A stretch of 64,000 nucleotides of DNA from Mycolicibacterium sarraceniae (GTDB lineage: Bacteria > Actinomycetota > Actinomycetes > Mycobacteriales > Mycobacteriaceae). The notes under the pieces were generated by a model that was given only the letters and a program-made list of their open reading frames with translations, was not told the DNA's origin and searched no databases. The stretch lies in assembly GCF_010731875.1 (NCBI RefSeq), contig NZ_AP022595.1, positions 682,001 through 746,000 of the forward strand, read 5' to 3'. This document shows positions 16,509-20,974 of the stretch, piece after piece. Every line of letters begins with the position of its first letter. Position 1 is the stretch's first letter. Position numbers and translations under genes: made by a program.

Positions 16509-17006
16509 TTAGATCTCCAGGCTGGACAACTGGCCGATGACATGCGTCGCCAGCGGGTTCAGCGTTGCCATGCCGTCGCGAACCGCGTAGCGCGAGCCCG
16601 CGATATTGACGACCAACGTGCTACCGGAAATCCCGGCCAGACCACGCGATAGGCCGGCGTCAGTGATGCCCGCCGACAGACCGGAAGCACGCAGTGCCTC
16701 CGCGATGCCGAGCAGCTCCCGATCAAGGATGGTCTTGGTGGCTTCCGGCGTCACATCGCGCGGAGTCACACCCGTACCGCCGACCGACACCACAAGGTCG
16801 ACGCCACCGATCACCGCAGTGTTCAGCGCGTTGCGAATCTCGATCTCGTCGGCAGACACCACCACGACACCGTCCACCACGAAGCCCGCCTCCGCGAGCA
16901 GCTCGGTGACCAACGGGCCGCTATGGTCCTCCTCATCGCCGTGGGCAGTGCGGTCATCGACGACGACGACGAGTGCACGACCCACCAGCTCCCCTGGATG
17001 TTCCAT
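16509..17006 (-). CDS. moaB2: MogA/MoaB-family molybdenum cofactor protein
   Basis: 165-aa MogA/MoaB-like protein expected to adenylylate molybdopterin. The molybdopterin-binding core is clear: DLVVSVGGTGVTPRDVTPEA followed by SGSTLVVNIAGS. The start at 17006 (MEHPGELVGRALVVVVDDRT) matches the M. tuberculosis MoaB2 N-terminus as I recall it; upstream in-frame ATGs would run toward pepD. It lies 80 bp downstream of pepD on the same strand, as Rv0983-Rv0984 do. Confidence 0.9.
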   Translation of the reverse strand: MEHPGELVGRALVVVVDDRTAHGDEEDHSGPLVTELLAEAGFVVDGVVVVSADEIEIRNALNTAVIGGVDLVVSVGGTGVTPRDVTPEATKTILDRELLGIAEALRASGLSAGITDAGLSRGLAGISGSTLVVNIAGSRYAVRDGMATLNPLATHVIGQLSSLEI

Positions 17007-17086
17007 GGATGTCACCGTATATCCGCCCGACGACATCCTGGCAGTCGTGCTGGTCAACGTCATGGGATGTTCACCGACCACCCGAA

Positions 17087-18583
17087 TCACTGGGCTGCCT
17101 TTCCGAGAGTGACCTGCACCGTTCGAGGGGAACCCGACGGGTCGTTGTACGTCAGCGTCACCTGGTCACCGGGCGCCCGCGACCGGACTGCGGCGACCAG
17201 CGCATCGGCGCTGCCGATCACGCGGTCGTTCAGCTTGGTCACCACCACGCCGCTGGGCAGGCCCGCGGCCGCAGCAGCACCGCCCTTCGTGACGTCAACG
17301 ATCTTCGCTCCGTGGGTGGTGGTGTCATTGCTGACCTGTACGCCAAGCGATGCGTGCGTTGCGGTGCCGGTGCTGATCAGCTCATCGGCGATCCGCTTGG
17401 CCTGGTCCACCGGAATGGCGAAGCCGAGCCCGATCGAACCGCTCTGAGCGTCCGGCGAGTCGCCGCCAAGGGTGGCGATCGCCGAGTTCACTCCGACCAG
17501 CTCTCCACTCATGTTGACCAGAGCTCCACCAGAGTTGCCGGGGTTGATCGCGGCGTCGGTCTGGATGGCATCCAGCACGGTGTTCTGGTTGTTGGCGTCG
17601 CCGCCGGTGGCCACCGGGCGGTTCAGTGCGCTGACGATGCCGGTGGTGACGGTGCCTTCCAGGCCCAGCGGTGAGCCGACCGCGACGACGTCCTGGCCGA
17701 CCCGCAGGTTGGACGACGAGCCGACGCTGATCGGCGTCAGGCCCGATACGCCCTGCGCCCGGACGACAGCGATATCGCTGGCCGGATCAGTACCGATCAC
17801 GGTGAAGGTCGCGGTGCGGCCGTCGGCGAACGTCACGGTTGTCGTGGGTGCTCCACCGGCTTGGCCCCCGCGACCGCCTTGCCCTCCCTGGCCCCCCTGG
17901 CCACCCGGCCCCCCGGGCGCGCCTGGCAGGCCGGGCGCTCCTGGCAGGCCAGGGGCCCCCGGCTGTCCCGGGGCCCCCGAGGGTCCGGGTGTTCCCGAGT
18001 CCAGCTTGGCCGCAGCCACGACGTGGTTATTGGTCAGGATCAGCCCGTCGGCGGACAGGATGATTCCCGAGCCCTCCTCGGACTGCCGGCCGAACTCGGT
18101 CTCGAGCTTGACGACGCTGGGCACGACCTTGGCGGCCACCTGCTCGACCGAACCCACCGGCAGATTTGCCGCCGGGGCACCGGACACTCCGTTGGGCCCG
18201 CCTTGGGGGACCGAACCGATCGGTTGCCGATCCGGGTGCTCAAGCAATACGACACCGCTACCCACGCCCGCCGAGACTACGGCGATCGCCAGCGCGCCTG
18301 CCATCAACGCTACTGCGCGCGAACGCCTGCGTGGCGGCATCGGCTGCATCGGGGGCACGCCCGGCGCGGCGGCCGGATGTCCTTGTCGCACAGCCTGATA
18401 CGGATCATAAGGCGGCCTGTACTGCGGGGGCTGCTGCTGGGTGGCGTACCGCCAGTCATAGGGCTGCTGATAGCCGGCCGTACGGGGCTGCTGCGAATAC
18501 CCCGGTGCCGCATGCTGATTCGGCCCTGGATGGCCTGACTGGCCGGCCTGGTGCTGCGGCGAGTACCTCTGCGGGTCGGTCAT
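17087..18583 (-). CDS. pepD: HtrA-like serine protease PepD with a collagen-like insert
   Basis: 498-aa membrane-anchored protease/chaperone. Residues 1-85 are a Gln/Pro/Tyr-rich cytoplasmic tail, 88-114 a membrane helix, about 145-395 the trypsin-like domain, and 405-490 a PDZ domain. The triad is H187 (LTNNHVV), D270 (SDIAVVR) and S351 (GNSGGAL). Between the His and the Asp, residues 197-241 form fifteen uninterrupted Gly-X-Y triplets, first Pro-rich (GPSGAPGQPGAPGLPGAP) and then Gly/Gln-rich. M. tuberculosis PepD has only a short loop here by recall. MprAB, encoded just upstream, is known to control pepD. Confidence 0.93.
   Translation of the reverse strand: MTDPQRYSPQHQAGQSGHPGPNQHAAPGYSQQPRTAGYQQPYDWRYATQQQPPQYRPPYDPYQAVRQGHPAAAPGVPPMQPMPPRRRSRAVALMAGALAIAVVSAGVGSGVVLLEHPDRQPIGSVPQGGPNGVSGAPAANLPVGSVEQVAAKVVPSVVKLETEFGRQSEEGSGIILSADGLILTNNHVVAAAKLDSGTPGPSGAPGQPGAPGLPGAPGLPGAPGGPGGQGGQGGQGGRGGQAGGAPTTTVTFADGRTATFTVIGTDPASDIAVVRAQGVSGLTPISVGSSSNLRVGQDVVAVGSPLGLEGTVTTGIVSALNRPVATGGDANNQNTVLDAIQTDAAINPGNSGGALVNMSGELVGVNSAIATLGGDSPDAQSGSIGLGFAIPVDQAKRIADELISTGTATHASLGVQVSNDTTTHGAKIVDVTKGGAAAAAGLPSGVVVTKLNDRVIGSADALVAAVRSRAPGDQVTLTYNDPSGSPRTVQVTLGKAAQ
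17861..17995 (-). repeat. Gly-X-Y coding repeat inside pepD
   Basis: 135 bp coding for fifteen consecutive Gly-X-Y triplets (residues 197-241). The DNA is degenerate between triplets in the first half and nearly homogeneous in the second, where GGQ repeats. Such a tract can change length by replication slippage. Confidence 0.85.
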
Positions 18584-18661: not shown

Positions 18662-20206
18662 CTACTGAGAATCGACTGAGACAACACTCGGCACGGCCGG
18701 TGCTTTTTGCCGGGAAACCCCTCGGTCATCATTGGTTTTGGCTCTTCTGGTAGTGATTTCGCTCTCAGCTGAAGCAGCCGGATAGCTCGTCGCAGTGAGC
18801 GGCAGGCCGGGCAGCAGGACATAGAACGATGTGCCGGGCGGCCGGCCGCCGGGCACGGTGTCGGCGATCCGAATCAGCCCGCCGTGTTTGACGACCACCT
18901 GTTTGACGATCGCCAAGCCCAGTCCCGATCCGGGCATCGCCCGCGCCGACGTCGCCCGGTAGAACCGCTCGAACACCAGACCGCGTTCATCGGGCGGAAT
19001 ACCCGGCCCGTAATCAGACACCACAAGCTCGGCGTGGGCGGCGTCCACCTGACGTAGCCGCACCCCGACGTGGGCGCCCGACGGACTCCACTTCGCCGCA
19101 TTGTCCAGCAGGTTCACCACCGCCCGCGAGAGTCCGGCGGAGTCGCCGTAGACCTGCCAGCCGATGACGTCGACGTCGAACTGAACGTCGTTGCGGCGCC
19201 GGCGCGCCCGCTCCAGGCTGCGTTCCACGACATCGCTCAGGTCGACCGCCTCATGCACGACTCCGCCCGCGTCCTCACGTGTGAGGTCAACCAAATCGCC
19301 TACGAGAGTGGACAATTCCTCGATCTGACCGATCACATCGGTTCGCAGATCGGCCATTTCGCCCTCCGGCAGCCGGGGGGCACCCGGTTGCATAGACGCC
19401 ATCAACAGTTCGACATTGGTGCGCAGCGATGTCAGCGGGGTGCGTAGCTCGTGCCCGGCGTCGGCGACGAGGCGAGCCTGCCGCTCCCGCGATTCGGTCA
19501 ACGCCCGAAGCATCGTGTTGAACGTCTCGGTAAGCCTGGCGAGCTCGTCACTGCCGAACACCGGAATGGGCCGCAGATCGTCGGTCCGCGCCACCCGCTC
19601 GGCCGCCTCGGTCAGCTTGGCCACGGGCCGCAGCCCGGTTCGCGCCACCATCCCGCCGGCGATGGCGGCAACCACCACGCCGATACCGCCGACCGCCAAC
19701 AACACCCATTTCAGCTTGGTCATCACCGCGCCGGTGGGTGCCAGGCTCTTCGAGATCAGCAATGAGCTGCCATTGGGCAAGTGCACCGCCAGCACCCGCT
19801 GGTTGGACACCGTCCGGCGGGACATCAACAACTCGCCGCTGATCACGGATTTCTCCGGCTCACCAACCGGTAGCCGCTGACCCTGTTGGTTTGCCGTGTA
19901 GATCGAGCGGCCCGGGTTGACTAGCATCGCGTTGACGTCGGAATAGGCGGTGCCCTCGATCGCCTTGCCCGGGTCTGCAGCCAACGACCCGCTGGCAATC
20001 AGCAGACCGGCCCGGCTCTGCAGCTGGTTGTCGATATCGGTGTAGAGCGCGGCCGAGACCACCGCGTACACCGCGACCGCCATCAGAACCACGACCATCG
20101 CCACCATGGACATCGCCAGCAGCATCACCCGCCATCGCAGGGATAGCGATGTCGTCGATTCGTCGGGCACCCGCCCCGATCGCGCGCGCCGCCTCAGTCG
20201 GACCAT
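18662..20206 (-). CDS. mprB: Sensor histidine kinase MprB
   Basis: 514-aa membrane kinase. Two membrane helices (about residues 28-55 and 163-187) flank an extracytoplasmic sensor domain. HAMP (ARTGLRPVAKLTEAAERVAR), the H-box DAGHELRTPLTSLRTN, the N-box LLDNAAKWSP and the G-boxes GPGIPP and GSGLGLAIVK follow. It phosphorylates MprA under envelope stress; in M. tuberculosis MprAB controls sigE, sigB and pepD. The start ATG overlaps the mprA stop by one base (TGATG), indicating translational coupling. Confidence 0.95.
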   Translation of the reverse strand: MVRLRRRARSGRVPDESTTSLSLRWRVMLLAMSMVAMVVVLMAVAVYAVVSAALYTDIDNQLQSRAGLLIASGSLAADPGKAIEGTAYSDVNAMLVNPGRSIYTANQQGQRLPVGEPEKSVISGELLMSRRTVSNQRVLAVHLPNGSSLLISKSLAPTGAVMTKLKWVLLAVGGIGVVVAAIAGGMVARTGLRPVAKLTEAAERVARTDDLRPIPVFGSDELARLTETFNTMLRALTESRERQARLVADAGHELRTPLTSLRTNVELLMASMQPGAPRLPEGEMADLRTDVIGQIEELSTLVGDLVDLTREDAGGVVHEAVDLSDVVERSLERARRRRNDVQFDVDVIGWQVYGDSAGLSRAVVNLLDNAAKWSPSGAHVGVRLRQVDAAHAELVVSDYGPGIPPDERGLVFERFYRATSARAMPGSGLGLAIVKQVVVKHGGLIRIADTVPGGRPPGTSFYVLLPGLPLTATSYPAASAESEITTRRAKTNDDRGVSRQKAPAVPSVVSVDSQ

Positions 20207-20898
20207 CAGGGCGGTGTCTCACGCAGCACGTAACCCACACCCCGCACGGTGTGGATCAGCCGCGGTTCTCCTTCTGCTTCGGTCTTTCGGCGCAGATAGC
20301 CGACGTACACCTCGAGCGCGTTGCCGGAGGTCGGGAAGTCAAAACCCCACACCTCCTCGAGGATGCGGCTTCGTGTCAGCACCCGCCGCGGATTGGCGAT
20401 CAGCATCTCCAGCAGCGCGAACTCGGTGCGCGTCAGGCTAATGGCGCGTTTACCCCGAAACACCTCGCGAGTCACGGGGTCCAGCGTCAGGTCGCCGAAC
20501 ATCATCACCGCCGAGTCGGACTGCTCGTCGGGGCTGGTCCGGCGCAGCAGGGCACGCATCCGGGCCAGCAATTCCTCGAGAGCGAAAGGCTTGGGCAGAT
20601 AGTCGTCGGCGCCGGCGTCCAGTCCGGCCACCCGCTCGGACACCGAGTCGCGGGCGGTCAGAACGAGGATCGGCATATCGTCGCCGGTGCTGCGCAGCTG
20701 ACGACAGACCTCGAGTCCATCGAGGCGGGGCATCATCACATCCAGCACCACCGCATCGGGGCGTTCGTTGGCGATCGCCTCGAGTGCTTCGACACCGTCC
20801 TGCGCCAGGTCTACGGAATACCCGTTGAAAGAAAGAGATCGGCGCAGGGACTCGCGCACCGCGCGATCATCGTCAACGACAAGTATTCGCACACCCAC
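20206..20898 (-). CDS. mprA: Response regulator MprA
   Basis: 230-aa OmpR/PhoB-type regulator. The receiver domain has the acidic pocket DDD near residue 8, the phospho-acceptor Asp in [13 protein letters not shown] and the Lys in DYLPKPF. The C-terminal winged helix contains [20 protein letters not shown] and [15 protein letters not shown]. The GTG at 20898 (VGVRILVV) gives the 230 residues known for M. tuberculosis MprA. It is followed immediately by mprB. Confidence 0.95.
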
Positions 20899-20974
20899 CA
20901 GTTTCAACCCAACGCCTGAGATAGGCCTAAGAGGCACGCCGCGCGAGCGGGCAATTCGCGGCGAGCGAACGCGA

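Follow-up and report, generated by a model that had tools for sequence, protein, structure and literature searches.

A three-residue-periodic Gly-X-Y loop beside the active site of mycobacterial PepD, with evidence that points to an extended, self-protected loop over a collagen triple helix

The HtrA-family serine protease PepD of Mycolicibacterium sarraceniae carries an unbroken run of Gly-X-Y triplets inside its protease domain, which raises the question of whether a collagen triple helix has been built into an enzyme or whether the repeat has another shape and another history. The question was addressed from the window, by which we mean the whole stretch of 64,000 nucleotides that was analysed (contig NZ_AP022595.1, positions 682,001 to 746,000), and from related proteins and genomes. 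The gene, its main parts and its neighbours lie in the window as follows:

17087..18583, minus strand: pepD, encoding a 498-aa HtrA-family serine protease
17144..17350, minus strand: PDZ domain, residues 412-480 (PF13180)
17531..17533, minus strand: catalytic Ser351, invariant in 49 sequences and completing the triad
17774..17776, minus strand: catalytic Asp270, invariant in 49 sequences
18023..18025, minus strand: catalytic His187, invariant in 49 sequences
18242..18316, minus strand: likely membrane helix, residues 90-114, judged by eye from the sequence
18662-20206, same strand, upstream of pepD: putative sensor kinase (NCBIfam match below cut-off)
20206-20937, same strand, upstream of pepD: putative response regulator (NCBIfam match below cut-off)
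16509-17090, downstream of pepD: protein with a molybdenum-cofactor (MoaB-type) domain (match over its cut-off)

The pepD frame (17087-18583, minus strand) is free of internal stops and translates into a protein made up of a Pro-rich N-terminus, the likely membrane helix, a trypsin-like domain and a PDZ domain, and both PF13365 (Trypsin_2) and PF13180 (PDZ_2) exceeded their Pfam cut-offs. With a His-Asp-Ser triad in the trypsin-like domain, a PDZ domain and an HtrA fold, the protein has the make-up of an HtrA/PepD serine protease; its closest solved relative was Rv0983/PepD of M. tuberculosis (E 5.5e-142). The gene order of the window agrees with that of M. tuberculosis, mprA-mprB-pepD-moaB2. 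An AF2 monomer model built from 60 diverse sequences, which replaced an earlier, poor one from 49 close relatives (pLDDT 52), reached a mean pLDDT of 85.8 and a pTM of 0.83. Confidence was high over most of the protease and PDZ regions, and outside the loop residues the model matched the PepD structure 2z9i. Residues 200-237 had a pLDDT below 50, a value that separates a polyproline-II (PPII) strand from disorder not at all, in a monomer model that is blind to the trimer.

These poorly modelled residues fall within the repeat, the parts of which were delimited as follows:

17840..18016, minus strand: the 59-aa loop LB, taken here as residues 190-248
17861..17995, minus strand: Gly-X-Y tract, residues 197-241, 15 triplets
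17906..17995, minus strand: Pro-rich block of the tract, residues 197-226, 10 triplets, the last being GGP
17913..17950, minus strand: 18-bp tandem repeat of 2.1 copies within the Pro-rich block (TRF)
17861..17905, minus strand: Gly-rich block GGQ GGQ GGQ GGR GGQ, residues 227-241

The tract reads GTP GPS GAP GQP GAP GLP GAP GLP GAP GGP GGQ GGQ GGQ GGR GGQ, and translation reproduced exactly the 15 unbroken triplets that the initial annotation had reported at 17861-17995, as well as their position between His187 and Asp270. As the tract begins ten residues past His187, it was assigned to loop LB by comparison with Deg5, in which the catalytic residue is His147 and residues 155-159 of loop LB are untraceable in the crystal (excerpts of PMC3640471). 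When the loop residues were shuffled 20000 times, the longest run was of 11 triplets and 15 were reached 0 times; a chance origin of the run is excluded. An assembly error, on which the observation was said to stand or fall, was rejected together with any sequencing or frame error, given an open frame, a genome in one contig and like tracts in independent assemblies of other species (the genus search covered one genome per species, and among the 120 proteins listed the top one was 86% identical). A sequencing artefact is thus an unlikely source of the tract.

The loop turned out to be long in part of this genus and short where it was read outside it. In M. tuberculosis PepD (Rv0983; 1y8t, 2z9i), loop LB has about 15 residues and no Gly-X-Y, compared with 59 in the window protein, and the short loop that the initial annotation expected for that species was seen in chain 1y8t. 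The HtrAs read outside the genus had short loops of 5-18 aa, and many other HtrAs span the same two points with 5-6 residues. Of 29 loci from other genera of the family, the 25 that could be read had loops of 9-11 aa; of 80 named loci, the 42 that could be read had loops of 5-18 aa, and two of these 42 (L036, L037) belong to mycobacteria. Within the genus, all 396 of the 396 genomes searched contained a match to the window PepD, which may be any HtrA relative. An even sample of 108 genomes was drawn, of which 106 were read and G050 and G097 (L246) left out; loop LB ranged from 8 to 65 aa with a median of 18, was at least 30 aa long in 33/106 genomes, and had at least 8 consecutive triplets in five, the window genome included, leaving 101/106 without such a run. 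On these sequences, loop LB, just after the catalytic His, appears to be a fast-evolving part of PepD in this genus. The M. sarraceniae genome also encodes a second PepD-like protein (L002, G000:C1:3964703-3966052; 61% identity), with a loop LB of 41 aa that lacks a Gly-X-Y run.

Long runs do not follow a single line of descent. Twelve of 183 deduplicated genus loci had at least 8 triplets, and their placement on a tree took 9 changes, at least 5 of them forced by well-supported branches; the underlying searches favour relatives of the query and brought in a few second PepD-like copies (e.g. L167, L188), and one of 187 loci (L246) was missing from the later loop parse and 8/111 from the first. 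Among the 120 best protein matches, all of whose loops were read, 27 had at least 8 triplets. Genome loci and proteins together, not deduplicated against each other and biased towards the query, gave 39 such rows out of 303, with 17 changes, at least 10 of them forced, gains and losses being counted alike. A single inherited collagen domain was rejected, as forcing the 39 rows into one clade cost 536 log-likelihood units (p-AU 0.00019), on a quick tree with 122/278 inner branches weakly supported and for a group defined by its own trait. The nearest relative of the window PepD (L008), 98% identical outside the loop, has no run of 8, and it shares with its neighbours L007 and L009 Pro/Gly-rich loops of 46 aa whose longest runs are only 2.

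The initial annotation had stated that random Gly-rich loops in homologues would undo the collagen interpretation. Homologous loops without long runs are not of that kind, being three-periodic in both Pro and Gly. After redundancy reduction there were 52 long loops in which no run reached 8 triplets, and in these Pro-Pro pairs at distance 3 numbered 289 against 147 in shuffled loops (z 15.8) and Gly-Gly pairs 166 against 101 (z 8.6), the shuffles ignoring whatever kinship remained after that reduction. Short loops had a weak three-residue period with a like excess at distance 4. Controls came from 328 GC3-filtered ORFs in the window and in 20 stretches of 20 kb each, covering about a tenth of the genome, from which 28 Pro/Gly-rich segments were taken with PepD omitted. 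These segments, picked by composition and differing in make-up from the loops, had no three-residue period (Pro z -1.1; Gly z -1.4, a comparison of low power with 16 pairs seen and 21 expected). Among the 328 sampled ORFs, PepD alone has at least 8 triplets, and its own Pro-rich N-terminus had a weaker Pro period (z 4.0) and no Gly period (z 0.8).

A repeat of this kind could have arisen without function, by neutral low-complexity expansion in which slippage on GGN-NNN-CCN units of GC-rich DNA happens to encode Gly-X-Y, and we consider this unlikely, though it is the rival to be weighed most seriously. The highly variable loop length (8-65 aa over the 106 genomes) speaks for it, as do the 9- and 18-bp repeats that TRF detected in parts of the tract and a Pro codon signal, weak and at the 18-bp spacing, in which the same codon recurs at lag 6 in 50/94 cases and at spacings other than multiples of 3 in 133/355. 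Frames with at least 8 triplets also occur elsewhere in the genome, in 4/5 of the Pfam-Collagen loci inspected (L196, L197, L201, L203), apart from the PepD site itself, and the antisense strand of pepD is collagen-like as well. The Gly codons keep little memory of a repeat: over 12 Gly-X-Y loops the same codon was found in 63/180 pairs at lag 3 and in 429/1311 pairs whose spacing is no multiple of 3, and all four Gly codons are used across the window's 15 intact Gly. Recent copying of DNA units is disfavoured because the Gly codons agree no more at lag 3 than elsewhere, and the period is not explained by it. DNA slippage as the sole cause was judged unlikely from this codon agreement and retained as a rival, against which the 28 aperiodic Pro/Gly-rich segments and the singular position of PepD among the sampled ORFs also count.

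We then consider the collagen triple helix that the initial annotation had proposed on the grounds of the tract. Like the bacterial collagen-like proteins Scl1/2 and BclA (PF01391), the window protein has unbroken Gly-X-Y, over 15 strict triplets. The Pfam Collagen model (PF01391) scored it at 15.8 bits in the genome search and gave the loop, when excised, 14.7 and 16.1 bits, all below the cut-off of 27.2, while the antisense strand of pepD scored higher, at 20.9 bits. Genome-wide there were 14 weak matches, among which the coding-strand PepD tract ranked tenth; with the antisense strand scoring higher and this rank, the match to the collagen profile is therefore no evidence here. On the plus strand, opposite pepD, an open frame of 308 aa (17472-18398) also reads as Gly-X-Y, probably as a mirror of GGN/CCN codons. 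The highest-scoring Pfam Collagen match in this genome (L196; G000:C1, 1164143-1164298) reached 25.3 bits, also below the cut-off; it has 14 Gly-X-Y triplets on both strands and, on the minus strand, a 165-aa frame with an apparent membrane helix. Two further loci, L201 and L203, have long frames with Gly-rich, PGRS-like triplets and are, we presume, possible PE_PGRS-type proteins. The PepD loop shares Gly-rich triplets with PE_PGRS-type mycobacterial tracts (PF21526) and scored 9.5-10.1 bits with that model, whose cut-off is 27.

The residues between the glycines are also not those of bacterial collagens. The first half of the tract is indeed Pro-rich, as had been noted, but not in the bacterial manner that had been claimed for it: Pro lies mostly in Y (GXP), whereas theirs tends to be in X. 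X-Pro accounts for 1/15 triplets in the window, and across 34 distinct tracts (373 triplets) there were 258 Y-Pro, 18 X-Pro and 0 Y-Thr. Unlike Scl1/2 and BclA, the window tract thus has Pro in Y, lacks Y-Thr, stays below the Pfam cut-off and is closed at both ends within one domain; for Gram-positive collagens a table in PMC8968730 gives 31% Pro at X and 48% Thr at Y. Moreover, ten related loops had the in-register Gly replaced in 6 of their 100 triplets (AVP, SGS, SAP, DGS, VIP, DGP), of which SGS and DGS are the final triplets of their tracts and the other four are internal, with Asp and Val among the substitutes; this clade of ten omits P0041 (0 replacements), P0049 (two in-register) and L116 (Gly replaced twice). 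A search bearing on prolyl hydroxylation says little: the genome's sole match to PF13640 (2OG-Fe(II) oxygenase; L294, G000:C1:2073369-2073641) lies in a frame interrupted by a TGA stop and may be a pseudogene.

Geometry sets a further limit. By textbook dimensions a rod of 15 triplets measures 129 A, and as a single small domain anchors the tract at either end, such a rod cannot be closed and a full-tract triple helix is therefore ruled out. With these anchored ends, the Y position of Pro, the replaced Gly and the 101/106 sampled orthologues that lack a run of 8, the triple helix of the initial annotation is not supported. HtrA proteins form trimers, and a parallel triple helix between three protomers could hold at most 8-10 of the 15 triplets by the same dimensions, the rest serving as the way back. 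The Pro-rich block precedes the Gly-rich block in 8 of the 10 reduced tracts that have both, an order that, with this limit, would suit a partial triple helix; the three Pro-rich blocks of a trimer would zip into a parallel helix of about 8-10 triplets at most, which we regard as improbable, and the Gly-rich blocks would act as flexible return strands of a locked or extended trimer, an equally improbable part of the same proposal. The spacing of gaps in a four-species clade, of 3, 3 and 9 residues within the tract and of one residue only behind it, is in keeping with such a helix. Still more doubtful is the extension of this idea, in which loop LB would have become a collagen-type zipper next to the active sites independently in several mycobacterial lineages, with tract length tuning trimerisation and access to the cleft. 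The initial observation was right and proved more general than first described, and its collagen reading, partly supported, is a live minority hypothesis.

Another possibility is an intramolecular bundle, like those of Obg or the snow-flea antifreeze protein, in which the tract would double back into two or three antiparallel PPII helices, and we give this little credence: the tract ends, anchored near each other, would suit a hairpin, and antifreeze bundles typically have G-X1-X2 repeats in which X1 is often Gly, but the loop has no Cys, no confident AF2 fold and no GGX pattern in its Pro-rich half, and the solved bundles have at least six helices, the four-helix keratin-associated protein being a model (excerpts of PMC10235112 and PMC8409303). 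Gly-rich PPII bundles (Obg, acetophenone carboxylase, snow-flea antifreeze protein) do share Gly-rich three-residue repeats with PepD; compared with them the PepD tract is shorter, is Pro-rich in its first half and has no predicted fold.

The evidence as a whole points to an extended, self-protected loop over a collagen triple helix, and we consider it about an even chance that the PepD loop is of extended PPII type and has been selected both for a three-residue period and against self-cleavage. The second part of this proposal rests on the residues that precede Pro. In 58 loops without long runs, Val, Ile, Leu or Met (VILM) was followed by Pro in 99/147 cases where 49 were expected (z 9.1), and in seven Gly-X-Y loops in 16/18 cases where 4.8 were expected (z 6.2). 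Pro before VILM was found in 57/159 cases, the preceding residue being counted without a shuffle. Ser/Thr followed by Pro were not biased (60/182, 57 expected, z 0.6), nor were VILM followed by Pro in the control segments (29/93, z 0.4). Ala followed by Pro was biased in the controls too (58/123, z 4.3), and therefore only the VILM part is specific to the PepD loops. Ser/Thr often stand after Pro in the loops (101/180, again with no shuffle for the preceding residue), and aliphatics often before it.

Proline at P1' generally blocks cleavage by serine proteases. The P1 preference is for Val, and also Leu and Ile, in HtrA of H. pylori and for aliphatic residues in that of E. coli (excerpts of PMC6509562), and PepD of M. 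tuberculosis is autoproteolytic (excerpts of PMC3062566). Taken together, the VILM-then-Pro bias, the P1 preference of HtrAs and the autoproteolysis of PepD suggest that the loop would be hard for PepD to cut. Three observations weigh against self-protection. Polar residues are also followed by Pro more often than expected in loops without long runs (101/256, z 3.5), and VILM are so in the Pro-rich N-terminal segment of PepD (48/196, z 3.5), which is expected to be cytosolic and beyond reach of the protease. Finally, animal collagen also favours Leu or Ala in X with Pro in Y.

According to the proposal of an extended, self-protected loop, loop LB would protrude as a PPII-type strand or hairpin, stiff, soluble and mostly unfolded as a monomer, and would form a spacer or rim next to the active-site cleft. 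An autocleaving PepD would spare its own loop, since the likely P1 residues (Leu, Ile, Val, Met) mostly precede Pro. Gly-X-Y would then be the most regular form of a G-x-P pattern, reached or kept several times, and not a separate collagen domain.

No description of an HtrA with a collagen-like insert was found in open-licence full-text searches whose matches were judged by titles and the starts of abstracts, in line with the expectation of the initial annotation. If part of the loop does zip up as a triple helix, an enzyme domain would contain a collagen element that is closed at its two ends, a topology of which we know no example. Across the genus, this envelope stress protease often has a long loop LB, in which case the three-residue period is strong, and Gly-X-Y has been gained or lost several times. 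If, as the self-protected loop would have it, Pro placed after the likely cut sites makes the loop resist self-cleavage, this would explain how PepD can carry a long exposed loop beside its own active site.
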